A stretch of DNA of 35,646 nucleotides, from assembly GCA_017624275.1 (NCBI GenBank), contig JAGANG010000050.1, forward strand, positions 1 through 35,646. Direction: 5' to 3'. This DNA is from Spirochaetales bacterium (GTDB lineage: Bacteria; Spirochaetota; GWE2-31-10). The notes under the pieces are model-generated. The model saw only the letters and a program-made list of their open reading frames with translations. It made no database searches and had not been told where the DNA came from. Position 1 is the first letter of the stretch, and each line of letters begins with the position of its first letter. The translations under genes and the position numbers were made by a program. Positions 1 through 19,286 of the stretch are shown here, in pieces.

Positions 1-215
1 AGATTTTCGTCCTTGCCGGGCTGAATTTCCATGTGGAAATGCGTGTCGAGGATACAAATATTCTTAATTTTCATTTTAAACTTTTCCGCTGCTGCGTGGA
101 TTAACGCCAGCAGATATTTTTTAATTCTGTCGTTCATGATGACTTGGACAAGTCTGTGAAATTTGTTGCTTACGTGATAATACGCATTTTTTTTCAATTG
201 CCGTGGTTTTCGCAT
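1..215 (-). CDS. REP-associated tyrosine transposase (RAYT, Y1_Tnp/HUH family), partial, runs off left edge
   Basis: Only the first 71 codons are in the window; the gene continues beyond position 1. The reading frame starts at ATG 215-213, seven bases after a GGAGG (227-223). The peptide begins MRKPRQLKKNAYYHVSNK, matching the N-terminal YHV-(T/S)-N/S-(R/K) signature of the Y1 single-strand transposase fold. Around residues 60-64 it has THFHMEI, which fits the HUH metal-binding pair (His-Phe-His). The catalytic tyrosine would lie in the missing part. Family members of this kind are domesticated relatives of IS200/IS605 transposases that act on REP hairpins. Three REP-like palindromes lie 130-310 bases upstream of this start, which fits that role. 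Codon choice is somewhat richer in CTG/CTC/GCG than neighbouring genes. The HUH-family call is firm; the RAYT subfamily is inferred from context. Confidence 0.8.
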   Translation of the reverse strand, partial: MRKPRQLKKNAYYHVSNKFHRLVQVIMNDRIKKYLLALIHAAAEKFKMKIKNICILDTHFHMEIQPGKDEN

Positions 216-341
216 TTTTATGCCTCCACAATGTTTTAATGCGTTTTGGGAACAATTCTATTGCACGATTGATTATTTTTTTACAAATTTTCACAGTTTA
301 TTTAATTTTAGAGGTAGGTTGACTTGGAAAAGCTGAAATTG

Positions 342-391
342 CATAGGTGTCAGACGTTCATGCGAAAACAGAATATACGTCTGTCACCATA
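342..391 (-). repeat. REP-like palindrome, copy A
   Basis: This imperfect palindrome has outer arms GGTGTCAGACG (346-356) and CGTCTGTCACC (378-388), with one mismatch. It is flanked by CATAG on the left and ATA on the right. Read on the minus strand it is TATGGTGACAGACG, then a core ATTCTGTTTT, then the closing arm. It is exactly 50 bases, the same length as copy B. It shares arms and core with copies B-E, so it belongs to a dispersed family. It is the copy nearest the RAYT start. Confidence 0.7.
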
Positions 392-415
392 TGCACACAA
401 GTAAACCAAAAAAAG

Positions 416-465
416 CATAGACGACAGACCTCAATCCTAAAACAGGATGCTTCTCTGGCACCATA
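416..465 (-). repeat. REP-like palindrome, copy B
   Basis: This copy aligns without gaps to copy A over 50 bases. It shares the flanking CATAG, the CAGAC arm, the central AAAACAG and the closing CTG-CACCATA. Its outer arms are more degenerate (GACAGACC against CTCTGGCACC). An inner hairpin ATCCT (434-438)/AGGAT (444-448) is perfect. Read on the minus strand it starts TATGGTGCCAGAG and has the core ATCCTGTTTT. Confidence 0.6.
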
Positions 466-477
466 AGTAACGCCATT

Positions 478-527
478 ACATCAAAATGTAGCTAAATCCC
501 AAAATGGAATTAGGGTCTGCCACCATA
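478..527 (-). repeat. REP-like palindrome, copy C (degenerate left arm)
   Basis: Read on the minus strand it begins TATGGTGGCAGACCCTAA, followed by the core ATTCCATTTT. The inner stem CTAAATCC (492-499)/GGAATTAG (506-513) has one mismatch. The distal arm (478-490) has decayed and the left boundary is uncertain. It sits in tandem with copies A and B at 62-74 base spacing between the RAYT and the alpha-amylase gene. Confidence 0.5.
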
Positions 528-568
528 AAAAACAAAAAATAGCTTTCTTATTAAAAAAACAATTTATA

Positions 569-4793: not shown

Positions 4794-4851
4794 AAACCGC
4801 ATTATTTGTAACTTCAAAACGTTGCAGATAATGCGGTTTTTATTTTTTTTT
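4794..4851 (+). terminator. Rho-independent terminator after the alpha-amylase gene
   Basis: A perfect stem AACCGCATTAT (4795-4805)/ATAATGCGGTT (4828-4838) has a 22-base loop and is followed directly by a T-rich run. It lies 25 bases after the amylase stop. Confidence 0.85.
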
Positions 4852-4876: not shown

Positions 4877-4921
4877 AGGTGCCAGACCTATATTCTATTT
4901 TGATATAGGGGCCTGTCACCT
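4877..4921 (+). repeat. REP-like palindrome, copy D
   Basis: The arms AGGTGCCAGACCTATAT and ATATAGGGGCCTGTCACCT form a long imperfect hairpin around a core ATTCTATTTTG. It has the same arm consensus (GGTGxCAGAC / CTGxCACC) and core (ATTCYRTTTT) as copies A-C but lies in the opposite orientation. It sits between the amylase terminator and the tRNA gene. Confidence 0.65.
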
Positions 4922-6121: not shown

Positions 6122-6151
6122 TTGTTTTAGATTGCTGATTTATGGTATAAG
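6122..6151 (+). promoter_or_regulatory. Candidate promoter of the radical SAM operon
   Basis: TTGTTT (6122-6127) and TATAAG (6146-6151) are separated by 18 bases, about 47 bases before the chosen start. The -10 is good and the -35 partial. Confidence 0.4.
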
Positions 6152-6197
6152 ATTTTTTATAGAATATTTTCTATTAATATATTTAAGGAAATTTATC

Positions 6198-8342
6198 ATG
6201 CAAAAAAATATTGTTCTCATTACTCCGCCGTTTGTTCAATTGTCATCGCCTTATCCGGCAACGGCATTTTTAAAAGGAGCATTGGCACAGGAAAATTTTT
6301 GTGTAAAACAATATGATTTCTCAATATTATTAGCATTAAAATTATTTTCCAAAGACGGACTTTCTGAATTATTTGATGAAATTGAAACCCAATTGAATAA
6401 AGGAAACCTTGAACTTTCCGAGCCGTTGGCTGCTTTTATTACAAAAAAAGAACAATATATTTATACGATAGAGCCGGTAATTTCTTTTTTGCAAGGAAAA
6501 TATCCGCAACTGGCACAAAAAATTTTATCCCGCAATTATTTACCTGAAGGAATGCGTTTTGATGAATTAAAAAATTCTAAGCGTAAAACTGATAATACCG
6601 AAACCGCAATACATTTAGCTTCATTGTATATCGATGATTTGACTGATTTATGCAGTCACACGGTTTTACCTAATTTCGGACTGTCCTGCTATGCCGCATC
6701 TATTGCCGAAAGCAATGATTTGAAATTCAGCGATATTGAAGCATTTTTAAAGGAAGACGATTTATTAACAAATTGGTTAGCTGTTTTAATAAAAGAGCTG
6801 GATATTAAAAATTGTAATCTTGTGGGAATCTCTGTTCCGTTTCCCGGAAATTTCTGTATGGCATTAAAAACTGCAAAAATATTAAAAAATATTAATCCGC
6901 AAATAAAAATAGCTATCGGCGGCGGTTTTGTTAATACTGGACTTCGCAATGTAAAAGAAAAAAAATTATTCGATTATGCCGACTTTGTGATTCTTGATGA
7001 CGGGGAATTACCGTTGATAAAATTGGCAGAGTTTTTAAACGGTGAAAGTGACAAAACTTCGCTGGTACGAACTTTTTACCGTGACAATAATGAAATTATT
7101 TATTCCGGTAATGATTCTCAAAATTACGAAAAACAATTTGTACCGGACTATGGTGAGCTTCCTCTTGATTCTTATTTTACTTTGCGAGAATCTACAAATC
7201 CAATGCACTCTCTTTGGTCACAGCGGATTTATTTAAAACTGCGAATGGCACATGGTTGTTATCATCACGGCTGTACTTTTTGCGATACTACACTTGATTA
7301 TATTGCTACATACAAAGCGGAAGACGGCGTATTTTTAGTTGATGCAATAGAAAAACTTATATTACAAACAGGACTTCACAGTTTTCATTTTGTAGACGAG
7401 GCAATGCCGCCGGCTGTTTTGAAAACATTTTGTCAGGAAATAATAAGACGACGTTTGGATATAATCTGGTGGGGAAATATTCGCTTTGATAAAGCATTTG
7501 ATTCCGATTTACCGCAATTGATGGCACGTGCCGGATGTATTGCTGTTACCGGCGGCATGGAATCGGGGTGCAACAGAATTTTGTCTTTGATGAATAAAAT
7601 GACGACGGTAGAAAATATTGTCAGAGTTTCACAAAAATTTGCAAAAGCTAACATTTTGGTTCACGGATATTTAATCTACGGATTCCCGGGTGAAAAACCG
7701 GAAGAAATCGCAGAAACTTTGGAAGTTGTACGACAAATGTTTCAGGAAAAAATATTACACTCCGTGTTTTTTCACAAATTCAGCCTTACAATCCACAGCG
7801 AAATTTTTCGTAATCCGCAAAAATATTCTGTTACCGGAATTATGCGAGATTTAAGTAAACTTACCGATTACGATATTTATTGCAAAGATTCTATACCGAC
7901 TGCGAAACTTAATAAAATTTCAGAAGCATTAAATGTAGCCGTTTATAATTTTAATTTGCGAAACAGTTTAGAAATTCCGGCTTCACAATGGTTGCGGTTG
8001 CAATGCAAAATAAAACCGCAGTTTGTAAAAACAATATTAAATAATAAGAAAAAGTACGATTTGAACAAAAAATGTTGCTGGCTGGGAACAAAACCTTTTT
8101 TTAAAGACGGAATTCTATATTTTGCCGGCAAAACAGGCGATATATCTTATGAATTACCGCAACCGTTAGCCGATTGGGTATGCAGACTGTTAGAAGAAAG
8201 TTCTGTTAATGGTAAAAAAATGTACCATTCTTTAAAATGTTGGTTAGATTCTTTACCTGGCGGTTTTTTTGAAAACAATGAAGATCTTTTAGATAATGAA
8301 TTGTGGGCAGATTTGCTGGAAGCCGGACTTATTTTACTATAA
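6198..8342 (+). CDS. B12-binding-domain radical SAM protein
   Basis: This 714-residue protein starts at ATG 6198 (AAGGAAA seven bases upstream, MQKNIVLITPP); the upstream extension to 6132 has no binding site. Residues 1-330 fit a cobalamin-binding-like Rossmann region, including the VGISVPFPGN strand and the IGGGFVNTG turn. The radical SAM core follows, with the cluster cysteines C354, C359 and C362 (CYHHGCTFC, CX4CX2C rather than CX3CX2C). Strands FHFVDEAMPP, TGGMESG and HGYLIYGFPGE follow as expected. A C-terminal region of about 250 residues is unassigned. It is the first gene of an apparent operon with a lipoprotein (9-base gap) and a beta-barrel (3-base gap). The substrate cannot be inferred. 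A methyltransferase or ring-forming role would be typical of the superfamily. Confidence 0.85.
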   Translation: MQKNIVLITPPFVQLSSPYPATAFLKGALAQENFCVKQYDFSILLALKLFSKDGLSELFDEIETQLNKGNLELSEPLAAFITKKEQYIYTIEPVISFLQGKYPQLAQKILSRNYLPEGMRFDELKNSKRKTDNTETAIHLASLYIDDLTDLCSHTVLPNFGLSCYAASIAESNDLKFSDIEAFLKEDDLLTNWLAVLIKELDIKNCNLVGISVPFPGNFCMALKTAKILKNINPQIKIAIGGGFVNTGLRNVKEKKLFDYADFVILDDGELPLIKLAEFLNGESDKTSLVRTFYRDNNEIIYSGNDSQNYEKQFVPDYGELPLDSYFTLRESTNPMHSLWSQRIYLKLRMAHGCYHHGCTFCDTTLDYIATYKAEDGVFLVDAIEKLILQTGLHSFHFVDEAMPPAVLKTFCQEIIRRRLDIIWWGNIRFDKAFDSDLPQLMARAGCIAVTGGMESGCNRILSLMNKMTTVENIVRVSQKFAKANILVHGYLIYGFPGEKPEEIAETLEVVRQMFQEKILHSVFFHKFSLTIHSEIFRNPQKYSVTGIMRDLSKLTDYDIYCKDSIPTAKLNKISEALNVAVYNFNLRNSLEIPASQWLRLQCKIKPQFVKTILNNKKKYDLNKKCCWLGTKPFFKDGILYFAGKTGDISYELPQPLADWVCRLLEESSVNGKKMYHSLKCWLDSLPGGFFENNEDLLDNELWADLLEAGLILL

Positions 8343-8351
8343 GGGAAATTT

Positions 8352-10055
8352 ATGAAGCAATTATGGTTTATTTTTATTCTTATACTTACTCTTTCATCTT
8401 GTGCTATCGAGAAAATAACAGAGTTAGTTTCTGACGGGCGTGAAATAAAAACTCCCGAATGGAAAGTTGATTATGAATTGCCTATACTCAAAAAATCAAT
8501 CGTAATGTCTGATTTTGTTGATGTGGGAGCTTTTTTAAAAGATTTGCAACATCGTGATGAAGATTCAATAAAAGAGAAAAATTCCGGGCTTATTTATATG
8601 GAAATTGAACCGGTTAAAATCTCTACGGAAGATTTGGATATTGATTCTAACGTAACGGAACTTTTGGATAATAAAGAACCGCTTACTTGGCCGCTTCCTT
8701 TGCAGATTTTCGAATCTCCGCAAGTTATGGAAACATCATTTCCGAGTATCAGAATGGATATGGATAAAGACGGTATTGATGATTTGATATTAGACAGACT
8801 TCAATCAAATGACGGATATTTAAAAATTAAAGCAGAGATTTCTATAACAGATTCTGAAGGTAATAAACATAATGCAACAAAGGAAGAATACTTTGTTGAT
8901 GATTTACCGGTTTTTAAAATTTCGGAAATAATCGTATGTGATAAAAAATTCACTTTTGACGAAGCTGTCTATGATGAAGATGAAAAATGTTTAGTTTTCA
9001 CTCCTAAAGGATTTTTGTCAGACTGGAATACTCCGTTGACCCCGGCTAAAGTAAATCCCGAGGATCCGTTTTGTATCGATTATGCTTTTAAATTTAAATT
9101 ACCGGAAAAGTCTCTTTCTGTCCGTGGAAAAGGATTTGATTTTATAAATAACCTTATCGAGGAAAATGCGCATCAAAATTCTAAAGCCCGCAGTACTGCC
9201 AGATCAAAATATTCAAGACGTAGCAATTCAGGATTTGATTTAGCTAAAATAAAAGAAATGCTTAATGAGAACGGCGGCGGTGTAGAAGGACTTGAAGCTT
9301 TAATAAAAGATGAAGGCGTAAGTGTAAAAGATATTGCAGATGCTTATCAAAACGAAAGTTCCGACGGAATTAATGAATTGCTTGAAGATATCGGAGATGT
9401 TTCTATTGTCGATGTTCTTGCTTCAGATACAATTACCGAAAATATCGAAGATTTTACAGATTTAATCAAAGATTATGACATGGGAGACGGAAAAACTCTC
9501 GGAGATATTACTGCAAGTGAAAATCTGGCAGGATTGAGTGAGTTTTTTAATTTTCATAAAAATCATGCAATTAAAGAATTGGAAGTTACTTTCTCGGTAG
9601 AAATAAATCTGGGAGACAGTTTTATTATTGTAGGAAGATTTATTAATGATTTTACGGCAATTTCAATGAAAGAAAGCGATATGCCGGAATTACCGTTGTC
9701 TAGTATAGGAAAAATACTTAAAGAAATAAAAATTGATGCAGATATAAATAACACCTTTTCATTTCCGGTCGAATTGAGAAATCCTCACTTAAAAGATAAA
9801 GATACCGGAAGTATTACTCCGATATTGTTTAACGGTAAAGAAGGTGATTTTCAATTAGCACCTTACGCAGAAAAAAAATACAAGTTAGAATTTTCTAAAT
9901 CTCTGGCAGAATTAGGCGACTCGGATTTATTACTTGACGTAATAATACCGAAAGGTTCGGAATGTGCCGTAAGTTTGAATACTGATTTCGGGCTGGATAT
10001 GAACATTATTGCAGCCGGTTATGCTTCCGTAGAGACCAATTCTTTGGGAGAATAA
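8352..10055 (+). CDS. Treponemal-type lipoprotein of unknown function
   Basis: This 567-residue protein carries a lipoprotein signal ending in LSSC (probable lipidated Cys17). The start follows AAGGGAAA in the gap after the radical SAM gene. The mature part looks mainly beta-rich from 20 to 270. A basic, Ser/Arg-rich stretch (about 272-295) follows, then an acidic helical segment (about 295-400), and a second beta-rich part to the end. I recognise no named domain. It lies directly before a beta-barrel protein with a 3-base gap, so a periplasmic or outer-membrane partnership is a reasonable inference. Confidence 0.75.
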   Translation: MKQLWFIFILILTLSSCAIEKITELVSDGREIKTPEWKVDYELPILKKSIVMSDFVDVGAFLKDLQHRDEDSIKEKNSGLIYMEIEPVKISTEDLDIDSNVTELLDNKEPLTWPLPLQIFESPQVMETSFPSIRMDMDKDGIDDLILDRLQSNDGYLKIKAEISITDSEGNKHNATKEEYFVDDLPVFKISEIIVCDKKFTFDEAVYDEDEKCLVFTPKGFLSDWNTPLTPAKVNPEDPFCIDYAFKFKLPEKSLSVRGKGFDFINNLIEENAHQNSKARSTARSKYSRRSNSGFDLAKIKEMLNENGGGVEGLEALIKDEGVSVKDIADAYQNESSDGINELLEDIGDVSIVDVLASDTITENIEDFTDLIKDYDMGDGKTLGDITASENLAGLSEFFNFHKNHAIKELEVTFSVEINLGDSFIIVGRFINDFTAISMKESDMPELPLSSIGKILKEIKIDADINNTFSFPVELRNPHLKDKDTGSITPILFNGKEGDFQLAPYAEKKYKLEFSKSLAELGDSDLLLDVIIPKGSECAVSLNTDFGLDMNIIAAGYASVETNSLGE

Positions 10056-10058
10056 ATT

Positions 10059-11504
10059 ATGTGTAATATGAAAAAGTCATTATGCATTTTATTTTTTATA
10101 TTTTATATATTTTCGTTTGCAAATGCGATTCCGTCTTCTTGGCAATCGGCTTTTTCATTGGGAATGAGCGGTTCACACAGTGCCGTTGCATCGGGACTCG
10201 AGGCTTTAACATACAATCCGGCAGGAATATCAACAACTCCTTATCGATTCGGAGTAAATCTGTTCGGGAATTTTACATTTGACTTAATGACAAATTTTTT
10301 CAGTGTTTATGACTTTGTTGAAGTTCTTGAAACATTGAAGTCAGACAATCCAAGCGTTGATGATTTTTTCTCAAGACAGCTGGATTGGATGTCTCCGGAC
10401 GGAGTTAGCTTGACATCTGCAATGTCATTATCTTTTTTCTCTTTTTATGCCAAATTGCAATCTTTTTATATAGGTTTCTCACTTGATAATAAAATCTTTG
10501 CAGATGTCACAGTGGGAAAAGATTTATTCCTGGGAATTTTTGATAAACTTTCGCTGGTACAGCCATTGAACGAAAAATTTTACGGGCGTTTCATGTGGTA
10601 TCAAGATTTTAAATTTGCCCTTTCGACAAAAATTCCAAAAGCAGAAAAACTTTTACCTATCAGAGGACTTTATGCCGGTATAAGCGGACATTTTTATTTA
10701 CCTATCATTTATACCTCGTTCTATTCTGACCTTTCATTGCATACCGGTGATACAGACGAGAAAAACGGACTTTATCAATACGCACTTGATATAAAGTGTG
10801 ATTTTGTCTACGGTTCGGTGTTGGGTAAGCATGTATTTAAGAATGTGCAATTACCGGAAATAGACGGATTAGATTTACAAAGTATTCTTGAAAACGGCGG
10901 TAACTTCGGAATGGGTATCGGAGTAGATTTGGGAATATTAGCTGATATTAACAAATATATAAAAATCGGGTTCAGTGTTACCGACTTGGGATTTATGTTT
11001 TATGCCGGCAGTCAACGAACCGATATTGATACAAACGTAGTTCTTGATATGTTAAAAGCTACAGAAATTATAGATTCACTGAAAAATGTTATAAAAGACT
11101 TTGATAATGCAAGAGACACAAAAGATTTTGAATTTTTTATGCCGTTGACTGCATTTCATTTAGGATTTTCAGTTAATCCTCTTCATCGAAGTGACATCAC
11201 CATAACATTACCGTTGAGTTTTACCGTGGGAGATTTTTATTCTGTTCAATTCGGTGGTTTACCTACTTTTGAACTTTCTACAGGAATAGAAATAATGCCG
11301 ATTTTCTACTGGTTTGACTTTCCGTTAAGATTATCAGTCGGTTTTTCATCTGCAAGCGGATTTTACACAGGATTGGGATTTGGTGTACATTTAGGTGCGT
11401 GCCAATTAGAAGTCGGCGTAAAAGGATTGGAAGCATTATTTATGACTCCACCATGGACTGGAAGAGATTTTGCGGTTGGTTGTTCGGTAAATTTCACTTT
11501 TTAA
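10059..11504 (+). CDS. Outer-membrane beta-barrel protein, FadL/UPF0164-like
   Basis: This 481-residue protein has a cleavable signal peptide ending near ANA (residues 21-23). The start is ATG 10059, with GGGAG eight bases upstream; the next ATG (10068) is too far away. The early mature sequence contains SAVASGLEALTYNPAG, the conserved N-terminal pattern of FadL/PorV-like barrels. The chain then alternates in amphipathic beta strands, with many aromatic residues and Gly, and ends in a Phe (NFTF), as outer-membrane barrels do. Treponemes have several FadL/UPF0164 paralogues. The ligand is unknown. It is the last gene of the radical SAM-lipoprotein-barrel operon. Confidence 0.75.
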   Translation: MCNMKKSLCILFFIFYIFSFANAIPSSWQSAFSLGMSGSHSAVASGLEALTYNPAGISTTPYRFGVNLFGNFTFDLMTNFFSVYDFVEVLETLKSDNPSVDDFFSRQLDWMSPDGVSLTSAMSLSFFSFYAKLQSFYIGFSLDNKIFADVTVGKDLFLGIFDKLSLVQPLNEKFYGRFMWYQDFKFALSTKIPKAEKLLPIRGLYAGISGHFYLPIIYTSFYSDLSLHTGDTDEKNGLYQYALDIKCDFVYGSVLGKHVFKNVQLPEIDGLDLQSILENGGNFGMGIGVDLGILADINKYIKIGFSVTDLGFMFYAGSQRTDIDTNVVLDMLKATEIIDSLKNVIKDFDNARDTKDFEFFMPLTAFHLGFSVNPLHRSDITITLPLSFTVGDFYSVQFGGLPTFELSTGIEIMPIFYWFDFPLRLSVGFSSASGFYTGLGFGVHLGACQLEVGVKGLEALFMTPPWTGRDFAVGCSVNFTF

Positions 11505-11543
11505 AAAAAAGTAGAAAAAAATCTGAAAGTTTGTAGTTATAAT

Positions 11544-11600
11544 AAAAAAATAAGTGTTTATATATATGTAGATAATTTATATATAAACACTTATTTTTTT
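11544..11600. terminator. Perfect 23-bp inverted repeat, terminator-like, abutting the next ribosome binding site
   Basis: The arms 11544-11566 and 11578-11600 are perfect complements around an 11-base loop. They begin with seven As and end with seven Ts, so the structure could terminate in either direction. The final T is directly followed by the GGAG of the TPR lipoprotein gene. Confidence 0.7.
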
Positions 11601-11610
11601 GGAGTCGATT

Positions 11611-12291
11611 ATGAAAATTTTATCAAAACTTATTTTGTTTACATTACTGTCTTCTGTAGTAATTTCTTGCAGTCCCGACAGATTAAAACCGATTCGTAAA
11701 CTGGCAAGATCACAAAATTTAGAAAAGAAAGAAGAAGCCGCATTATTATACAAAGAAGCAGTTTCTACTCTCGTAAATGCTTATTCATCATCTGCCGGAT
11801 TGAACAAAACCATAGGCAAACAATTATTAATAAAAGGAGCTTATGAAAAAGCACTGGAACATTTGGAGCAATCACGTGATATTATAAATAATGATTTTGA
11901 AACATATCATTGTATTGCAATCTGTCATGTAAATTTATACAAAATCAATCGTAATAAAGAACATTTAATTAAAGCAAAAGAAAACTACAAATATGCATTG
12001 AATATCAGTCCGGACAGACCGGGAGTTTTGTATGACTATGCACAACTTTTAGTATTCGGAACCGAAGAATACCAAGAAGCCGTAAATATTTTGACACACT
12101 ACATTTATAAATTAAAAACTCAGGATAAAAACGGATATTTCTTATTGGGACGTTCATTATTTTTACTTGGTGAATATGACAAAGCTTATGAAGTTTATTC
12201 ATCAATTTATAATTTTGAAAAAGAACTCACTGCCGAAGAAAAAACAAGTCTTGATGGTTTTATAGCAGAAACATTAAATAAAAAACGATAG
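11611..12291 (+). CDS. TPR-repeat lipoprotein
   Basis: This 226-residue protein starts at ATG 11611, six bases after GGAG. A start four codons earlier lies inside the T run of the hairpin and is unlikely. The signal peptide ends VVISC, so Cys20 is the likely lipid anchor. From about residue 50, helical repeats with TPR spacing are visible. Segments such as GAYEKALEHLEQS, HLIKAKENYKYALNISP and GEYDKAYEVYSSI carry the typical Gly/Tyr/Ala/Pro positions. It probably holds about four TPRs and acts as a periplasmic scaffold; its partner is unknown. dprA follows after 8 bases. Confidence 0.75.
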   Translation: MKILSKLILFTLLSSVVISCSPDRLKPIRKLARSQNLEKKEEAALLYKEAVSTLVNAYSSSAGLNKTIGKQLLIKGAYEKALEHLEQSRDIINNDFETYHCIAICHVNLYKINRNKEHLIKAKENYKYALNISPDRPGVLYDYAQLLVFGTEEYQEAVNILTHYIYKLKTQDKNGYFLLGRSLFLLGEYDKAYEVYSSIYNFEKELTAEEKTSLDGFIAETLNKKR

Positions 12292-12299
12292 GGAAAAAA

Positions 12300-13169
12300 A
12301 TGCATACTATTCATGATATCGCACTGTCGATGGAATTTCTGACGCCGTCAGATCGTCGTAAATTGTTTGAATATTTCGGTAATTCAGAACAAATATACAC
12401 AGAACCGCTTTTGAAAATACAACGTATATTAGGGAAAAGACGGACACTTCATCCGGAATTTGTAGAAGAAGCAAAGAAGATAAACGATTTTATTTTACGT
12501 TCTGGAATTCAAGTTTTAAGGTTTGACGATGTGATTTTTCCATTGCAATTGAAGTGTTTCGATGATTATCCGTTTATGATATTTTTACGCGGCGACAGAA
12601 ATTTACTTTCTTACAAAATGGCTGCTGTAATAGGAACACGAAAACCGTCTGAAATCGGGAGTGAAGTTGCTTGTACGATGGTTCAAACTTTAAAGCCGTT
12701 TAATTACGCTGTTGTTTCCGGATTGGCAAAAGGAATAGATTCTATTGCTCATCAAGCGGCTCTTGATATAAAAATACCGACAATCGGCATTTTAGGCTGC
12801 GGGATTGATATGATTTACCCCAAAGAATCTAGGCAACTTGCCGTAAAAATGATTGAATCCGGAAATCTGTTAATTTCCGAGTATCCGCCCGGCAGCCGTC
12901 CGCATCGCTGGCATTTTCCGGAAAGAAATCGTCTGATTGCTGCATTATCATCGATTGTTTTACTGGTAGAGGCTCCGACAACTCATTCCGGAACAATAAT
13001 TACGGCATACAAAGCCATAGAATATGGGAAAACACTGGGCGTTTATTTACCAGCAGAAGACAAAAAAGAATATTTTTGCGGCAATATTACATTTTTAAAT
13101 GATGAAGCCGGATTTCCGTTGCGAAACAGAGAAGATTTAAAAATGATGTTAGAAAATAACGAATTCTAA
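12300..13169 (+). CDS. dprA: DNA-processing protein DprA (Smf), short form
   Basis: DprA binds single-stranded DNA during natural transformation and loads RecA. The 289 residues contain a short helical N-terminal part and then the Rossmann-like DprA core. Diagnostic motifs are AVIGTRKPSEIG, SGLAKGIDSIAHQAAL, ILGCGIDMIYP, ISEYPPG and FPERNRLIAALS. The protein ends soon after the core, so the C-terminal winged-helix found in many DprA proteins is absent. The ribosome binding site is weak (AGGGA). It follows the TPR lipoprotein by 8 bases and is probably cotranscribed with it. No other competence gene is in the window. Confidence 0.92.
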   Translation: MHTIHDIALSMEFLTPSDRRKLFEYFGNSEQIYTEPLLKIQRILGKRRTLHPEFVEEAKKINDFILRSGIQVLRFDDVIFPLQLKCFDDYPFMIFLRGDRNLLSYKMAAVIGTRKPSEIGSEVACTMVQTLKPFNYAVVSGLAKGIDSIAHQAALDIKIPTIGILGCGIDMIYPKESRQLAVKMIESGNLLISEYPPGSRPHRWHFPERNRLIAALSSIVLLVEAPTTHSGTIITAYKAIEYGKTLGVYLPAEDKKEYFCGNITFLNDEAGFPLRNREDLKMMLENNEF

Positions 13170-13271: not shown

Positions 13272-13769
13272 CTACACAAAATATTCATCTTGATTTTCTT
13301 GCAATGTTTCATTCAATCTTTCTTTGCGTGCTATTCGCTTTGGATCTCGTGTTACTGTTTTTACAGCCGCAACAATTTGAAAAACATCTGCAATTATTCC
13401 CAACGTCATCGCTGTCACACCGGCTATTAAATACAGAATAAATAAAAAATACGAGATTTCTGCACTGAACATATATTTGAATAAAATATTCCCATGAAAA
13501 TCTTGCAGATAAAACAAGGCAAACAACACTGACAAAAAGCATAATATTCGCATTACTTTGACATTATACAAAACATGAAATGTAAAATATAATCCCAACA
13601 CAATTGAATACATGAATATAAAAGAAATCTTCAATGGAGCATTGAATATATGAATAATATCCGAAATATAAAAACTTATACTGTAAGTCAGTTGCAGTAA
13701 TACAGACGTAACATAAAATAACATAAAGAATTTTAAAATATCAAAAATCTGCTGTTTTACTGTTTTCAT
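13272..13769 (-). CDS. Small integral membrane protein of unknown function
   Basis: This 165-residue protein has four or five hydrophobic segments (about 10-30, 45-65, 72-90, 98-130). A basic C-terminal tail (KTVTRDPKRIARKERL) is probably cytoplasmic. I recognise no family. The start has GAGGAG overlapping the stop of avtA, which ends only 3 bases upstream, so its translation is probably coupled to avtA. It is the last gene of the nadC-nadB operon. Confidence 0.65.
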   Translation of the reverse strand: MKTVKQQIFDILKFFMLFYVTSVLLQLTYSISFYISDIIHIFNAPLKISFIFMYSIVLGLYFTFHVLYNVKVMRILCFLSVLFALFYLQDFHGNILFKYMFSAEISYFLFILYLIAGVTAMTLGIIADVFQIVAAVKTVTRDPKRIARKERLNETLQENQDEYFV

Positions 13770-13772
13770 GAC

Positions 13773-15032
13773 TTATTCTCCTCTGTAAAGTTTTGTAACT
13801 TCCTCCGCTAAAATTTTTATCCCTTTTTCCAATAATGCTGAATCTTGTGAAAAAGTAATACGAATGCATTCATTTTTCATTTCTGAATTTTCTTCACATC
13901 CCGGAAAGAAATAACAGCCGGGAATAATATAAACATTTCTTGATTTTAAACGTCGGTACAATTCATAATTGTTGATTGGTAAATTAGGAAACCACAACCA
14001 TAAGAAAAAAGCTCCCTCATTTTCATGTACATAATACGGTAAATCATCGGGGAAATAACGCCTAATCAATTCTAAAGCTTCTTGTGAGCGTTTTTTATAA
14101 AAAGGCGTAATAATATTTTCTGACAGTTCTGTTATTTTATTTTTCGCAAAAAACTTATTTGTCAAAACCTGCCCGAAGGTTCCGCTTGCCAAGTTTACAA
14201 CTGCATTTATATTGGAAATCATGTTAATAATTTCTTCATCTGCCACAATTATTCCGGTACGCAATGACGGCAAGCCTAATTTTGACAAGCTAAACGAATG
14301 AATTATGTTTTTATCAAACAATGTTTTTGTTTTACGAAATAAGATTCCCGGGAAAGGCTCGCCGTAGGCATTATCAATAATCAACGGAATATCATGTTCT
14401 TTTGCCAAAGCCAACAATTGTTCCATCTCTTCATCCGTAATTACATTTCCTGTCGGATTTGTAGGACGAGTAACACAAATTGCTCCAATGCTTTCATCTA
14501 TTTTTAATGCATCAAAATCTACACGATATTTAAAACTGTGTTTTCCCGTATATTCGATTTTAGGAAGATAAGAACGCAAAGTATCTTCTTCAAGGGTTTG
14601 ATCCGCATAACCGATATACTCCGGCACCATAGGAAACAAAATTTTCTTTTTACTGCCGTCCGGAAATTTTCCGGAAAACATATTTAACAAGTAGAAAAAA
14701 GCATTTTGACTGCCGTTTGTAATCGCTACATTGTTGCGAGTAATATTCCAACCGAATGTCCGCTGAAAATATTTTGCTACATCTTGCAAAAAATCTTCGT
14801 TTCCCTGAGGACTGTCGTAAGAACTTATAATTTTACTAAAACGATTTAAATCAGAAACTTCATTTAACAGGGAATGAAAAACTTCTTGCATTTCTTGAAT
14901 TTTGGCAGGATTTCCGCCGCCCATAAGAATTACTTCTCCCGGTTTTTGCATTGCATCACCGATATCATTCATCAATTCACCTATTCCGGTTACTTTCCCT
15001 ATTTTCTTACCGAATGAAGAAATCTGAAACAT
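13773..15032 (-). CDS. avtA: Valine-pyruvate aminotransferase
   Basis: This 419-residue fold-type I PLP enzyme would exchange amino groups between valine and pyruvate (alanine/valine interconversion). It is close in sequence to E. coli AvtA throughout. Shared blocks are GGGNPAKIQEMQ, TNGSQNAFFYL, PEYIGYAD, VTRPTNPTGNVITDEE and DNAYGEPFPGI. The PLP lysine is K251 in SLSKLGLPSLRTG. The start has TAGGAG about eight bases upstream. It lies 17 bases after the solute-binding lipoprotein gene. The substrate preference is inferred from homology; related aminotransferases are broad. Confidence 0.88.
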   Translation of the reverse strand: MFQISSFGKKIGKVTGIGELMNDIGDAMQKPGEVILMGGGNPAKIQEMQEVFHSLLNEVSDLNRFSKIISSYDSPQGNEDFLQDVAKYFQRTFGWNITRNNVAITNGSQNAFFYLLNMFSGKFPDGSKKKILFPMVPEYIGYADQTLEEDTLRSYLPKIEYTGKHSFKYRVDFDALKIDESIGAICVTRPTNPTGNVITDEEMEQLLALAKEHDIPLIIDNAYGEPFPGILFRKTKTLFDKNIIHSFSLSKLGLPSLRTGIIVADEEIINMISNINAVVNLASGTFGQVLTNKFFAKNKITELSENIITPFYKKRSQEALELIRRYFPDDLPYYVHENEGAFFLWLWFPNLPINNYELYRRLKSRNVYIIPGCYFFPGCEENSEMKNECIRITFSQDSALLEKGIKILAEEVTKLYRGE

Positions 15033-15049
15033 AAAATTCTCCTAAAAAA

Positions 15050-16636
15050 CTATTGAGGTTCAATCACTGATTTAAAAATCATTTTTAAAGTCAACGAATC
15101 ACAGAAATAATCATAATCCGGCTGATAATAAAAGTTTGAGATTTTTGCATTCATAAAGAAATAATTTTTCTGTGCAAAAACCGGCGAAAATTGCCATTTA
15201 AAATTAAAAGTCTTTCTTTTTGCCGATTCATTACTTCCGCCTACTGTAGCAGCAAATTGTGATTCTGTAAAAAGCTTATTCACATTCCACGTTTTCGGGA
15301 ATAAATCATATTCAAACAGTACGATGTCATAATCTTTTTTATAAAAAATTGTATCTACAAAATCTTCCGTATTTTCCACTCGGACAATATTGTAATTCAA
15401 ACTGTTTGAATCCAGTACAATCTTTAATGTCTTTTCTATTTCATCCGTAAGTTTACCGGCAAAAAGAACAATTTTTAAAATCATAGGTTTGTTATCAAAA
15501 CCAAACTTTCCGTTATCATCAGTAAACAATTGTTTTGGTACAGGCGGCTTTGTAAAAAGTGTATTTTCATAAATTCCGGATAATGCGGTAAATTTTGGAT
15601 TTTCATCTGTAATACTTCCCAGTACTCCGGCAATAAAACTGCAAACCCCGTCATTTTTCATATATGCAGAACTTCCGTCATTAAAATTATTATAAGCCGT
15701 AACAATTCTGTTATTTTTATATCCGGTATCAACAACACGTTTTTTACCTTCCATTCCTTGCATTACAACTGACAGAAGTTCAAATTCTCCGTCGAGTCCC
15801 TCAAATATATCCACTTCATCCGCCATAAATTGACGAATCAATTCTTCACGATTCGGAATATATTTCAAAACTATTTGTTCCGTATAAGGAAATGAATTGC
15901 CCAGAGAATCCTCACGTTGGTAATAAGGATTGGCACGTAATGTATATTTTTCCGTATTAATTTCTGAAATCATATATGCACCGGATGAAGTAAAAGTTAA
16001 ACTTTCGGAAATAGCGTTAAAATCCGCAATTCTTTGAATTTCTTCTTTTTTTATTACCGGGAAATTAACAAGACGTTCCAATACAAAAGGATCGGCTTTA
16101 GAAAATGACAAAGTAATTTGAGTATCGGTTGTAGAATCTATATTTACGTCATTTCCGGGCATAAGAAATTCTGCTCCGATTTTTGTAGTTTTGAGAATAT
16201 TTTTTAAGAAAAGAAAATCAGCTTCTATGTCGGCAATCGTAACATCACTTCCGTCTGAAAACTTTCTGTTTTTATCAAGAGTAAAAACAATATTCTGCAA
16301 GTTTGAAGAAACAGTAACCGATTCGGCAATATTTCCTACAATTTTTCCTGATGTAGGATTACGAAAAACTAAAGTTCCCATTGTCGCCTGTTTGATAAAC
16401 TTTTCCATATCATTAGAAGCAAAAAAAGGATTTATCCCGTTAGCTATATTTTGAAATGCAAATACCAATTCCGAAGCAATATTTGCTTTGATAGGAATTT
16501 CAGAATATTCCTTAGAAATTTTATATGCAATATCAGTTTTATCTTCCTTGTAAAAAGCTGTATTTCTGTTTTTGTTTTCGCATGATAAACATAAGGCAAA
16601 AATTACAATAAATAATGAACTAAATATTTTTTTCAT
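15050..16636 (-). CDS. Extracellular solute-binding lipoprotein, family 5 (peptide/nickel type)
   Basis: This 528-residue protein has a lipoprotein signal ending LCLSC (Cys19). The mature part fits the SBP_bac_5 fold. GTLVFRNPTSGKIVGNIAES, the FTLDKNRKFSDGSDVTIADI block and SGAYMISEINTEKYTLRANP are typical of OppA/DppA-like proteins that bind peptides or small ligands for ABC importers. No permease or ATPase gene is beside it, so it is an orphan binding protein. It sits inside the NAD operon, 17 bases after nadB. The ligand is unknown; a role in pyridine or amino-acid uptake is conjecture. Confidence 0.85.
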   Translation of the reverse strand: MKKIFSSLFIVIFALCLSCENKNRNTAFYKEDKTDIAYKISKEYSEIPIKANIASELVFAFQNIANGINPFFASNDMEKFIKQATMGTLVFRNPTSGKIVGNIAESVTVSSNLQNIVFTLDKNRKFSDGSDVTIADIEADFLFLKNILKTTKIGAEFLMPGNDVNIDSTTDTQITLSFSKADPFVLERLVNFPVIKKEEIQRIADFNAISESLTFTSSGAYMISEINTEKYTLRANPYYQREDSLGNSFPYTEQIVLKYIPNREELIRQFMADEVDIFEGLDGEFELLSVVMQGMEGKKRVVDTGYKNNRIVTAYNNFNDGSSAYMKNDGVCSFIAGVLGSITDENPKFTALSGIYENTLFTKPPVPKQLFTDDNGKFGFDNKPMILKIVLFAGKLTDEIEKTLKIVLDSNSLNYNIVRVENTEDFVDTIFYKKDYDIVLFEYDLFPKTWNVNKLFTESQFAATVGGSNESAKRKTFNFKWQFSPVFAQKNYFFMNAKISNFYYQPDYDYFCDSLTLKMIFKSVIEPQ

Positions 16637-16653
16637 AAAACAGTCCTTGTTTT

Positions 16654-18222
16654 TTAATTTTTAATGTAATGGCAACCTAAAGACTTTGTATTGTGTATCG
16701 CCTGATCTACAATAATCGATGCCGTAATAATTGCATTACGCAATTCTATAATGGAACGATTCAATTTTGCTTCCTTATAGAATTTTATAATTCTGTGAGA
16801 ATAATAATTTAAATCAGATTTAGCACGCTCCAAACCTTTATTAGTTCTTATTATTCCGGCATAATTCCACATTGTCAGTTTAATAACTTGTAAATCTTGC
16901 CCGATAATAAGCGGATCAAATTCTTCCATATTAGATTTTGGAGTTTCCCAATCTACAATATTTTCCAATCTTGCTCGACGTATTTCCTGAAAATTATCTT
17001 TTATATCATCAGCTACACGTTTTGCCCATACAAGCCCTTCAAGCAACGAAGTAGATGCCAGTCGGTTTGCTCCGTGCAATCCGGTACAACTTACTTCTCC
17101 CAATGCATAAAGATTTTTCAAAGATGTTCGTCCGTTAAGATCTACTTTTATACCGCCGCAAAAAAAGTGTGCCGACGGAACAATCGGAATCGGTTCTTTA
17201 GTAATATCAATTCCGCCGGATAAACACGTATTGTAAATTTTTGAAAAGCGTTTTTCAATAGGCACACTGCCTTTATAATGATTGGCTAAATCAAGTAAAA
17301 GGAAATCTGCTCCGGTTCGACTCATTTCTTCATATATTGCACGTGCAACGACATCACGAGGTGCAAGTTCTTTTAAATGACTGTAGCGTCCCATAAATTC
17401 TTTTCCGTCTCGGTTTAAAAGCTTTGCTCCCTCACCTCGCAATGATTCGGATATCAAGAAACGCTTTATATCTCGATGAAAAAGTGCTGTCGGATGAAAT
17501 TGAACAAATTCTGCATTAATAATATCCGCACCGGCTCGATGTGCCATACTTAATCCGTCACCGGTAGCAGATGACGGATTGGTTGTATGTTGGAAAATTT
17601 CACCGATTCCGCCGGTTGCCAAAATCACTTTATGTGCCAGTAATTTTTCTACGCATCCGTCAAGGTTGTTTAATACATAAACGCCCATTACTTCACGTTT
17701 TCTATAAATTTCTTGATTATCACCGCTGTGATGATTATTTGTAATTAAATCTATTGAAGTGTGAGACGTAAGAATTTTAAGTCCGATTTTTCGGGCATAA
17801 GCTAAAAGCTCCGTAATAATTTTATCACCGGTATGATCTTCATAATGCAAAATTCTTCGTTTGGAATGTGCGGCTTCTTCTGTATAATCAATTTCTCCGG
17901 TATCATTTGTACTGAATTTTATTCCGACTTTATCTATTAAAAAATCGAACACTTGTTTCGGGCCGGTTTCCGACAGCATTTTTACGGCAGCAGTATTGTT
18001 ATAATAACATCCGGCTTCTAAAATATCTTTATATAACAACTTTGGATCGTCTTCGGGATTCCAGGCGATAATTCCGCCTTGTGCTTGAAAAGAATTACAC
18101 TCGGACACTTCGTCTGTCTTTGTTATAACGACAACATCAAGTCCAGCTTCTTTTAAATAAATTGCACAACTTAATCCTGCTATACCTGTTCCTATAACTA
18201 AAGCATCATAAACTTTTTGCAT
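16654..18222 (-). CDS. nadB: L-aspartate oxidase
   Basis: NadB oxidises L-aspartate to iminoaspartate, the first step of de novo NAD synthesis. Its 522 residues match the usual length. The FAD-binding dinucleotide motif is at the N-terminus (GTGIAGLSCAIYLKEAGLDV). The second FAD/active-site segments FQAQGGI, HSKRRILHYEDHTG, ATGGIGE and FVQFHPTAL are present, as are PSAHFFCGGI and GLHGANRLASTSLLEGLV. The helical C-terminal domain of the fumarate reductase/succinate dehydrogenase flavoprotein family follows. AAAGGAG lies eight bases before the start. It follows nadC by 17 bases. Quinolinate synthase (nadA), the partner enzyme, is not in the window. Confidence 0.95.
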   Translation of the reverse strand: MQKVYDALVIGTGIAGLSCAIYLKEAGLDVVVITKTDEVSECNSFQAQGGIIAWNPEDDPKLLYKDILEAGCYYNNTAAVKMLSETGPKQVFDFLIDKVGIKFSTNDTGEIDYTEEAAHSKRRILHYEDHTGDKIITELLAYARKIGLKILTSHTSIDLITNNHHSGDNQEIYRKREVMGVYVLNNLDGCVEKLLAHKVILATGGIGEIFQHTTNPSSATGDGLSMAHRAGADIINAEFVQFHPTALFHRDIKRFLISESLRGEGAKLLNRDGKEFMGRYSHLKELAPRDVVARAIYEEMSRTGADFLLLDLANHYKGSVPIEKRFSKIYNTCLSGGIDITKEPIPIVPSAHFFCGGIKVDLNGRTSLKNLYALGEVSCTGLHGANRLASTSLLEGLVWAKRVADDIKDNFQEIRRARLENIVDWETPKSNMEEFDPLIIGQDLQVIKLTMWNYAGIIRTNKGLERAKSDLNYYSHRIIKFYKEAKLNRSIIELRNAIITASIIVDQAIHNTKSLGCHYIKN

Positions 18223-18239
18223 GATTTACTCTCCTTTGT

Positions 18240-19076
18240 TTATTTGTGTTTTATCAAAGAAAAATCAAAAATTTTTACCGTATGAGTTAATTCACCTACA
18301 GAAATATAGTCTATCCCGGAGGTTGCAAGTTCTTTTACTCGTTCAAGCGTCATATTTCCGGAAGCTTCGATTTCTGTTTTCTTATTAATAAGTTTTACTG
18401 CCTCAAGCATTGTTTGATTATCCATATTATCAAGCATAATGCGATCGACATTCAATTGTAATGCTTCTTCTATTTCTGCAAAATTTCTGGTTTCAACTTC
18501 TATTTTATATTTATTTCCCCATTTTTCACGCACACGTTTTACAGCTTCGGTAATACCGCCTACGCCGTCGCTGTGATTATCTTTTATCATTACCATATCA
18601 TGCAAGCCGATACGATGATTAACAGCTCCGCCGCAAGTAACGGCGTATTTTGCAAGATGACGATAACCTGGCAACGTTTTTCTTGTATCAAGAATTTTTA
18701 CCGGAGCTGCGGCTTTTACAAAATCATTAGTTCGTGTAGCAATTCCGCTGAGATATGAAATGAAATTTAAAGCCGTACGTTCACCCTTTAGTATTGAAGA
18801 AATCTTTCCTTCAACTACGGCAACAATATCACCGTAAGAAAGAACGTCGGAATCTGAATAGGAAAAGGAAACTTTCAATAAAGGATCTATTTTATTGAAC
18901 ACTCTTTCAAAAATCTGTCTGCCGCAAAGAACTCCGTCGGACTTTGCTTTTAACATGTAAGTTCCGTCACCAAGTCCGTTGGGAAATATTGCATCCGTAG
19001 TAACATCTCCCGATTCTGCAAAATCTTCATAAAAAGCAATATCTATCAATCGATCTATTTCTTCTGTACAAACCAT
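18240..19076 (-). CDS. nadC: Nicotinate-nucleotide pyrophosphorylase (carboxylating)
   Basis: NadC converts quinolinate and PRPP to nicotinate mononucleotide. The 278 residues are standard. Visible motifs are the N-terminal EDFAESGDVTTDAIF, ERTALNFISYLSGIATRT, the phosphoribosyl-binding ILDTRKTLPGYRHLAKYAV, GGAVNHRIGLHDMVMIKDNH, and the barrel end ASGNMTLERVKELATSGIDYISVGELTH. It is the first gene of a five-gene minus-strand operon (nadC, nadB, lipoprotein, avtA, membrane protein). A GGAGGG binding site lies just upstream of the ATG. Confidence 0.95.
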   Translation of the reverse strand: MVCTEEIDRLIDIAFYEDFAESGDVTTDAIFPNGLGDGTYMLKAKSDGVLCGRQIFERVFNKIDPLLKVSFSYSDSDVLSYGDIVAVVEGKISSILKGERTALNFISYLSGIATRTNDFVKAAAPVKILDTRKTLPGYRHLAKYAVTCGGAVNHRIGLHDMVMIKDNHSDGVGGITEAVKRVREKWGNKYKIEVETRNFAEIEEALQLNVDRIMLDNMDNQTMLEAVKLINKKTEIEASGNMTLERVKELATSGIDYISVGELTHTVKIFDFSLIKHK

Positions 19077-19100
19077 TATGCCCTCCGTATATTAGGAAGT

Positions 19101-19120
19101 AATATAACAAAATGTTTTGT
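19101..19120 (-). promoter_or_regulatory. Candidate -10 box with adjoining dyad upstream of nadC
   Basis: On the minus strand TATATT (19106-19101) follows directly after the dyad ACAAAA-CA-TTTTGT (19120-19107). The dyad would lie in the spacer of a promoter for nadC, 25-44 bases from its start, where an NAD-synthesis repressor could act. No regulator is in view, and the dyad does not match a NAD-regulon site I know. Confidence 0.25.
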
Positions 19121-19247
19121 GATTTTGTACATTATAAAAACATCATTTAATATTGGAAAAGAAATTATTGACGAAAGTCTATGTTAAGTAATTTTTAGAA
19201 ATAGTATTTTGCCTAATATTCGCAACGGTAAATATAACTCTATTGCT

Positions 19248-19286
19248 GTGCCAGACCCTCATTCCATTTCAGAATAACCCCTGCAC
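19248..19286 (+). repeat. REP-like palindrome, copy E
   Basis: GTGCCAGACCCTcATTC and GAATaacccCTGCAC form an imperfect hairpin around ATTCCATTTC. Arm and core match copies A-D, with the same orientation as D. It lies between the divergent nadC and mgtC-like genes. The rest of the 19077-19413 gap holds promoter candidates for each side and nothing else I can support. Confidence 0.55.

Follow-up and report, generated by a model that had tools for sequence, protein, structure and literature searches.

The literature describes RAYTs (REP-associated tyrosine transposases) as single-copy genes or finds no evidence of gene movement: Nunvar 2010 (PMC2817692) reported none in multiple copies, and other accounts give them as single-copy (PMC8049555) or of low copy number (PMC6006769). 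In a survey of the superfamily, class 1 proteins (IS200) carry Y---Q and DH[VI]H and class 2 proteins (RAYTs) carry Y---NP (PMC6006769). RAYTs are further described as having a conserved N-terminal threonine and NP(L/V)(R/K)xG following the tyrosine (PMC2817692). The closest described systems are REPtrons, with GTAG REPs, in E. coli, Stenotrophomonas and Pseudomonas (PMC2817692, PMC8266576, PMC6006769); TIRtrons, whose transposases (TIRYTs, PMC3733652) belong mostly to subclass 2.1 (PMC6006769); IS200/IS605 elements such as IS608 and ISDra2; and CGTC-tagged REPs, also reported from Spirochaetes (PMC3733652). In the literature that we covered, which is incomplete, no report of a spirochaete RAYT of the kind described here was found, and among the papers listed for the motif sequences all were unrelated.

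We analysed a stretch of 35,646 nucleotides from Spirochaetales bacterium (the window), which is contig C83 of a 2.58-Mb, 91-contig, 84%-complete genome (G000). A first-pass annotation, made from the letters alone, had read a minus-strand fragment at 1-215 as a Y1/HUH RAYT lying beside an array of REP-like palindromes. From the sequence evidence presented below, we estimate a probability of roughly 0.78 that the left end of the window is one copy of a spirochaete element that works like a REPtron or TIRtron, is still mobile, and uses a tag other than GTAG. The features on which this reading is based are collected in the table.

Table. Features of the window, copies of the two RAYT families in the same genome, and foot-flanked RAYT-like genes in other spirochaetes.
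Feature	Position or location	Strand	Remarks
Truncated RAYT-type Y1/HUH transposase (family A), N-terminal 71 codons	3..215	(-)	THFH present; tyrosine helix off contig
Element leader, RAYT start codon to first REP	216..345	(-)	ends ...GAAATTGCATA at REP; conserved in all family-A copies (multiple alignment)
REP1, two-footed: GGTGTCAGACG - core ATGCGAAAACAGAAT - CGTCTGTCACC	346..388	.	element's upstream (5') end
REP2, two-footed: GACGACAGACC - core ATCCTAAAACAGGAT - TCTCTGGCACC	420..462	.	spacer of ~31 nt from REP1, common to other copies
REP3, single-footed: core ATCCCAAAATGGAAT + foot GGTCTGCCACC (right foot plus core only)	496..524	(+)	
Intrinsic terminator of amylase-like gene: AACCGCATTAT...ATAATGCGGTT + T tract	4795..4851	(+)	precedes REP4
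REP4, solitary, two-footed: GGTGCCAGACC - core - GGCCTGTCACC	4878..4920	.	between amylase-like gene and tRNA
REP5, solitary, single-footed: left foot TGTGCCAGACC + core, right foot degenerate	19247..19275	(-)	
Family-A copies, both flanks assembled	C75, C30, C9		
Family-A copies, 3' flank only	C73, C50, C54, C65, C59, C1 start		
Family-A copies, 5' flank only	C63, C83, C36, C7, C81, C1 end		
Family-B copies	L135:18300-19250 (G000 C67); L136:11060-12015 (G000 C55)		directly after intrinsic terminators
RAYT-like gene flanked on both sides by foot variant	L086 (G211)		GGTGCCTGGCACC
RAYT-like gene flanked on both sides by foot variant	L074 (G308)		CTGGGGACAGACCC
RAYT-like gene flanked on both sides by foot variant	L078 (G314)		AGGGACAGACCTC

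The product of the window gene (215-3, minus strand) reads MRKPRQLKKNAYYHVSNKFHRL...DTHFHMEIQPGKDEN / ...ILDTHFHMEIQP, and its frame is open to the contig end. Intact paralogues elsewhere in the genome (family A) are 154 aa long, with THFH as the HUH motif and the tyrosine in YIEENAVRAG; the complete paralogue of the window gene, P0001 (L003:654-1118:-), carries both THFH and YIEEN. The catalytic tyrosine, sought beyond the contig edge, was recovered in these intact copies, which have the tyrosine helix on which a RAYT reading depends. The family-A protein only just passed the NCBIfam model for REP-associated tyrosine transposases (NF047646, REP_Tyr_transpos; 82.8 bits, cut-off 80). Y1_Tnp (E 8e-14) was the sole domain above the Pfam cut-off in the 154-aa protein, and the PDB match was to TnpA-REP (4er8, E 5e-4). 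These three matches bear out the first-pass assignment of the fragment. When family A was aligned with a second family from the same genome (family B, below), the HUH and the tyrosine lined up in both. After the tyrosine, family A reads Y---NA (NAVRAG) and family B Y---NP (NPIRAG), and at the position of the conserved N-terminal threonine family A has serine and family B threonine. Family A thus differs from REPtron proteins in having NAVRAG in place of NP(L/V)(R/K)xG, and serine in place of a reportedly invariant residue. It also differs from TIRYTs of subclass 2.1, because the C-terminal HTH domain that is a trait of that subclass was absent in the Pfam search. An alternative reading is that the element is an ordinary IS200/IS605-family insertion sequence with subterminal hairpins and MITE-like internal deletions, so that the RAYT/REP label is superfluous. 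We consider this unlikely: the protein passed the RAYT model and failed that of IS200/IS605 (NF033573; 28 bits, cut-off 55), and it has Y---N and THFH rather than the Y---Q and DH[VI]H of class 1 (PMC6006769).

All palindromes of the window share one layout, in which a core, ATNC(N7)GNAT, is followed on the right by the foot GGTCTGNC(A/G)(C/T)C, preceded on the left by its reverse complement, or both. The feet read GGTGNCAGACC or GACGACAGACC, with one variant reading GTCGTC, and the GT[AG]G tetranucleotide was absent from the 5' foot here and in a sister species, G001, where the foot is AGGGACAGACC. A search with the pattern ATNCN7GNATN3GGTCTGNCN2C, allowing at most 2 mismatches, gave 9 strand-hits in the window versus 0.03 expected from shuffles, a count that is partly circular because the pattern was derived from the REP family itself; 8 of the 9 were the five REP sites. 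REP5 was left out of the training of a covariance model and was still recovered by it (25.7 bits, E 1e-4). Folded as single-stranded DNA, only REP1 (z -3.7) and REP4 (z -2.2) were clearly better than shuffled sequence, and REP2, REP3 and REP5 had no clear advantage. The family is therefore defined by foot plus core and not by a perfect stem. A test for covariation in the inner hairpin found none, so we claim no conserved RNA or DNA fold for this hairpin, and an Rfam scan of the window returned 5S and tRNA only. Among two-footed REPs of the own genome, stem position 5 was unpaired in 25 of 36, and positions 4, 6, 7 and 8 were paired in 35-36 of 36; the mismatch recalls the bulge required in E. 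coli REPs (PMC8266576). The five palindromes are real, related and intergenic, as had been annotated, but only two fold clearly, and REP3 and REP5 proved to be single-footed.

A DNA search of the genome with window positions 1-540 gave 29 matches. Eleven contigs break inside the element or within about 60 bases of it, as expected because the element is a repeat. Since halves with one flank may pair up, we give the family-A count as at least nine, a lower bound in a fragmented, 84%-complete bin. REPs lie on both sides of every family-A copy whose sides are assembled, the flanking genes differ in every copy, homology stops at the REPs, and the TAG stop codon of the RAYT falls inside the 3' REP foot (GGAATAG-ACGACAGACC). 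The association of the RAYT with a REP array therefore stood, whereas the single RAYT of the first-pass annotation became at least nine, each with palindromes at its ends. The element is compact (~0.7-1 kb) with one gene, and the copies assembled on both sides showed no tnpB. Non-autonomous derivatives built from the 5' REP array were found at L013, L014, L016 and L018. Multiple copies, small size, a single gene, palindromic ends and such derivatives would also suit an IS200/IS605 insertion sequence, as would the sharp, IS-like ends of family B. However, solitary REPs, single-foot units among them, exceed the transposases about tenfold, and the five intact family-A genes share 89-96% DNA identity, compared with about 99% tabulated for IS200 (PMC6006769).

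The family-A copies differ from one another by 4-11% in DNA, which speaks against a very recent burst in this family, and protein identity is 93-98%. The intact genes have dN/dS of 0.04-0.15 at dS 0.16-0.54, and other members of the family are decaying: only a remnant is left on C26, and the C36 copy contains a stop. Strong purifying selection across divergences as high as dS 0.5 could reflect old duplications of a domesticated, host-retained RAYT instead of transposition, and RAYTs elsewhere are regarded as domesticated (PMC8049555). This explanation is improbable, in our judgement, given the homology that stops at the REPs, the different genes flanking each copy, a presence that differs from the sister species, and the decaying copies.

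To examine the palindromes genome-wide, we used the covariance model, trained on 43 REP units of the window's own genome and on no G001 sequence. The class was sampled by nine genomes in all, including one sister species, G001 (Spirochaetales bacterium isolate HAN109); the first-pass annotation had assumed treponeme relatives, an assumption that was not confirmed. We obtained 145 strand-hits in the own genome, which correspond to ~100 REP places because two-footed units match both strands, and at least 150 in G001. The other seven genomes had 1-8 weak hits each, the best at E 0.02, which is chance level. The palindromes are thus abundant in their own genome and in a sister with the same RAYT; they are neither missing from the rest of the genome nor equally common without a RAYT, and within the class the RAYT-REP association is based on one genus. 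In G001 the repeats are mostly AGGGACAGACC...GGTCTGTCCCT, with the foot (A/G)GGGACAG. Many of them (GGGGACAG) match GGGGWSAS, the TIRtron repeat consensus; the window repeats read GGTG, and GGTGWCAG nearly matches it. A search of IMG/VR found no relatives, and so no sign of phage carriage, and a search of GTDB contigs found three loci only. ORFs make up 90% of the DNA in the sampled stretches of the own genome, which total 350 kb, yet 53 of 56 REP sites lay outside ORFs (binomial P about 1e-49), in agreement with the intergenic bias annotated earlier; the remaining 3 share one ORF composed of the repeats. These stretches were partly picked for having hits and give no density estimate, but position within a stretch is a fair test.

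REPs were found mostly at the 3' ends of genes, where they adjoin ready-made terminators and have no T tract of their own. An intrinsic terminator lay within 60 nt of, and pointed at, 19 of 41 REP clusters, compared with 60 of 460 (13%) random intergenic points (P 1e-6). When terminator and foot face each other, mostly 8-12 nt separate the end of the T tract from the foot, with duplicated flanks in some cases. Randomisation within the same gaps gave 1.6 expected cases at a spacing of 6-14 nt, a range set after inspection of the data, versus 13 observed. In G001 the association was weaker (8 of 32 versus 15 of 170, P 0.014), and the 6-14 nt spacing was not seen. We conclude that REP placement near terminators is a real positional bias, arising from targeting or selective survival. 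The position of terminators is a possible reason for finding REPs at gene 3' ends.

Intergenic placement, mainly at gene 3' ends and near terminators, is also what would be expected if the palindromes were host elements, acting as bidirectional terminators, stabilisers of mRNA 3' ends or protein-binding sites, among which a RAYT inserted or which it targets. We regard this as very unlikely. REP feet form the ends of every family-A copy, with the stop codon inside the 3' foot; REPs fall to chance level in relatives without a RAYT; they sit beside terminators without supplying a T tract; and the foot motif also flanks RAYTs of another spirochaete family (below). As a separate observation, terminator-plus-REP blocks are repeated together with their flanks (TTTTGGCTGTCGGTAGAAATGCCGGCAGTTTTTTTGTCGGTTC-AGTGTCAGACC) at L130:1-1110 (G000 C48) and L145:11700-11900 (C47), which suggests that whole 3' ends were duplicated.

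Family B is about 48% identical to family A, with nearly identical copies on C67 and C55 and halves on C57 and C29. Its ends are sharp and inverted (TGCCCAGAGC...GCTCTGGGCA / TGCCCAGAGCTC...AGCTCTGGGCA, about 0.95 kb apart), and its flanks are unrelated. The same genome also holds a third, divergent RAYT-like ORF (G000 C87:10927-11217, L047), open for 119 codons with HFQ in place of the HUH, which is possibly a decayed member of the family.

We compared the element sites with G001. The gene lying 5' of the family-B copy on C55 ends in G001 in a terminator of its own, and a REP follows in place of the element; the family-B element is likewise absent from the C67 flanks. At the C1 site, G001 has a solitary REP in the same gap, and for about 370-400 nt around the C30 flanks it has neither REP nor RAYT. 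We looked in G001 for clean empty sites matching the window sites and those on C55, C67, C1, C59 and C30. The elements are absent from the G001 flanks examined, but these flanks are non-adjacent or rearranged, or a neighbouring gene has changed, and we found no empty site with its two sides joined. Two blocks of the window between 6134 and 19132 (6134-13156 and 13274-19132) have exchanged places in G001 C125, and block ends lie near REPs in several loci, hinting at REP-linked rearrangement.

Intact active-site residues, palindromes shared between the element ends and ~100 further places, whole elements that have multiplied under purifying selection, and repeats restricted to RAYT genomes can all be read from the sequence and point to the preferred reading of a mobile RAYT element. 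The multiple copies, the REP ends and the RAYT-limited distribution likewise support the original suggestion that the RAYT may have generated, or may still move, the palindromes. In the mechanism that we propose, the mobile element would have as its only gene a RAYT-type Y1/HUH single-strand transposase, with REP-type palindromes as its ends. By analogy with E. coli TnpA-REP (PMC8266576) and IS608, the protein would bind the foot G(G/A)(T/C)GNCAGACC and a hairpin on single-stranded DNA, and the tyrosine of YIEEN would cut beside the foot, after which the piece would be pasted elsewhere. The moved piece could be the whole element (REP-RAYT-REP), or single or paired REPs travelling as non-autonomous passengers. 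In the window species, insertion or retention favours positions ~8-13 nt past an intrinsic terminator's T-tract.

The system is a RAYT by curated model and REPtron-like in its working, yet two usual descriptors fail, namely the GT[AG]G foot and low copy number, since the at least nine copies here are joined by multi-copy RAYTs in the spirochaete genomes G294 and G358. With REPtrons it shares a protein that passes the RAYT model, a gene between REPs, and numerous solitary REPs in intergenic DNA, which occur singly, in pairs or in clusters and mostly 3' of genes. It differs in its foot, in two feet often sharing one core, and in a RAYT present in several closely similar copies. TIRtrons likewise have a RAYT-like gene between non-GTAG inverted repeats and moderately abundant families. 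In contrast to them, the feet here lie in hairpin units with a conserved core, the repeats occupy about 100 genomic places and the transposase is multi-copy, whereas subclass 2.1 is reported without REPs. IS200/IS605 elements share the HUH single-strand transposase of ~150 aa, the palindromic ends and the multiple copies, but not the abundant solitary ends. CGTC-tagged REPs are similarly short, palindromic and intergenic, and the GTCGTC foot variant recalls them; unlike those repeats, which are reported without an associated transposase (PMC3733652), the repeat here occurs on every family-A RAYT copy. With at least nine RAYT copies under selection, a sharp-ended second family and ~100 matching REPs, the genome is a natural system for testing RAYT self-movement and the movement of REPs by their RAYT.

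Relatives at E <= 1e-12 are encoded by 57 of 393 spirochaete genomes, in several of them in many copies. Those of G294 and G358, which belong to another spirochaete family, are about 38% identical in amino acids to the window protein. Among 8 copies from each of these genomes, GGTGTCTGACACC, GGTGTCAGACACC or a close variant lies beside nearly all, and on both sides of many. The sequence GGTGTCWGACACC, found flanking RAYTs of this second family, includes the window arm GGTGNCAGAC. Exact GGTGTCWGACACC counts across the 393 genomes were 95 in G294, 102 in G373, 61 in G358, 9 in G341, 2 in G365 and 1 in G335, with 0-1 elsewhere, and a reversed control pattern never exceeded 1 per genome. All five genomes with at least 2 sites were RAYT-positive (P 5e-5). 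Only because this second, independent clade shows the association too can RAYT-REP association be considered more than one event. Around other spirochaete RAYTs, GGGGACAGACC, AGGGACAGACC or GGTGCCTGGCACC is repeated. The probable recognition sequence of these spirochaete RAYTs is CAGAC with G-rich sequence to its left, which approaches the TIRYT consensus GGGGWSAS (PMC3733652). A foot common to distant spirochaete RAYTs provides a concrete recognition sequence to test. A broader proposal, which we advance tentatively and at slightly less than even odds, is that spirochaete RAYTs are undomesticated and copy themselves together with their REPs, that divergent RAYTs share a (G/T)GNCAGAC-type foot, and that insertion in the window species is directed just beyond terminators.

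Another genome of the same order, G005, has at least 8 full-length, 165-aa RAYT-like genes (L052, L054, L056, L058-L062) with dN/dS of 0.07-0.27. The second histidine of the HUH is missing (HIE, EIQ or NIE), and the tyrosine position is occupied by serine, with arginine in one copy and a shifted Leu-Ile in another. Upstream of most of these genes lie GGTCTGTCCC / GGGACAGACC palindromes, complete or in part. They constitute a multi-copy, apparently catalytically dead RAYT family under selection.
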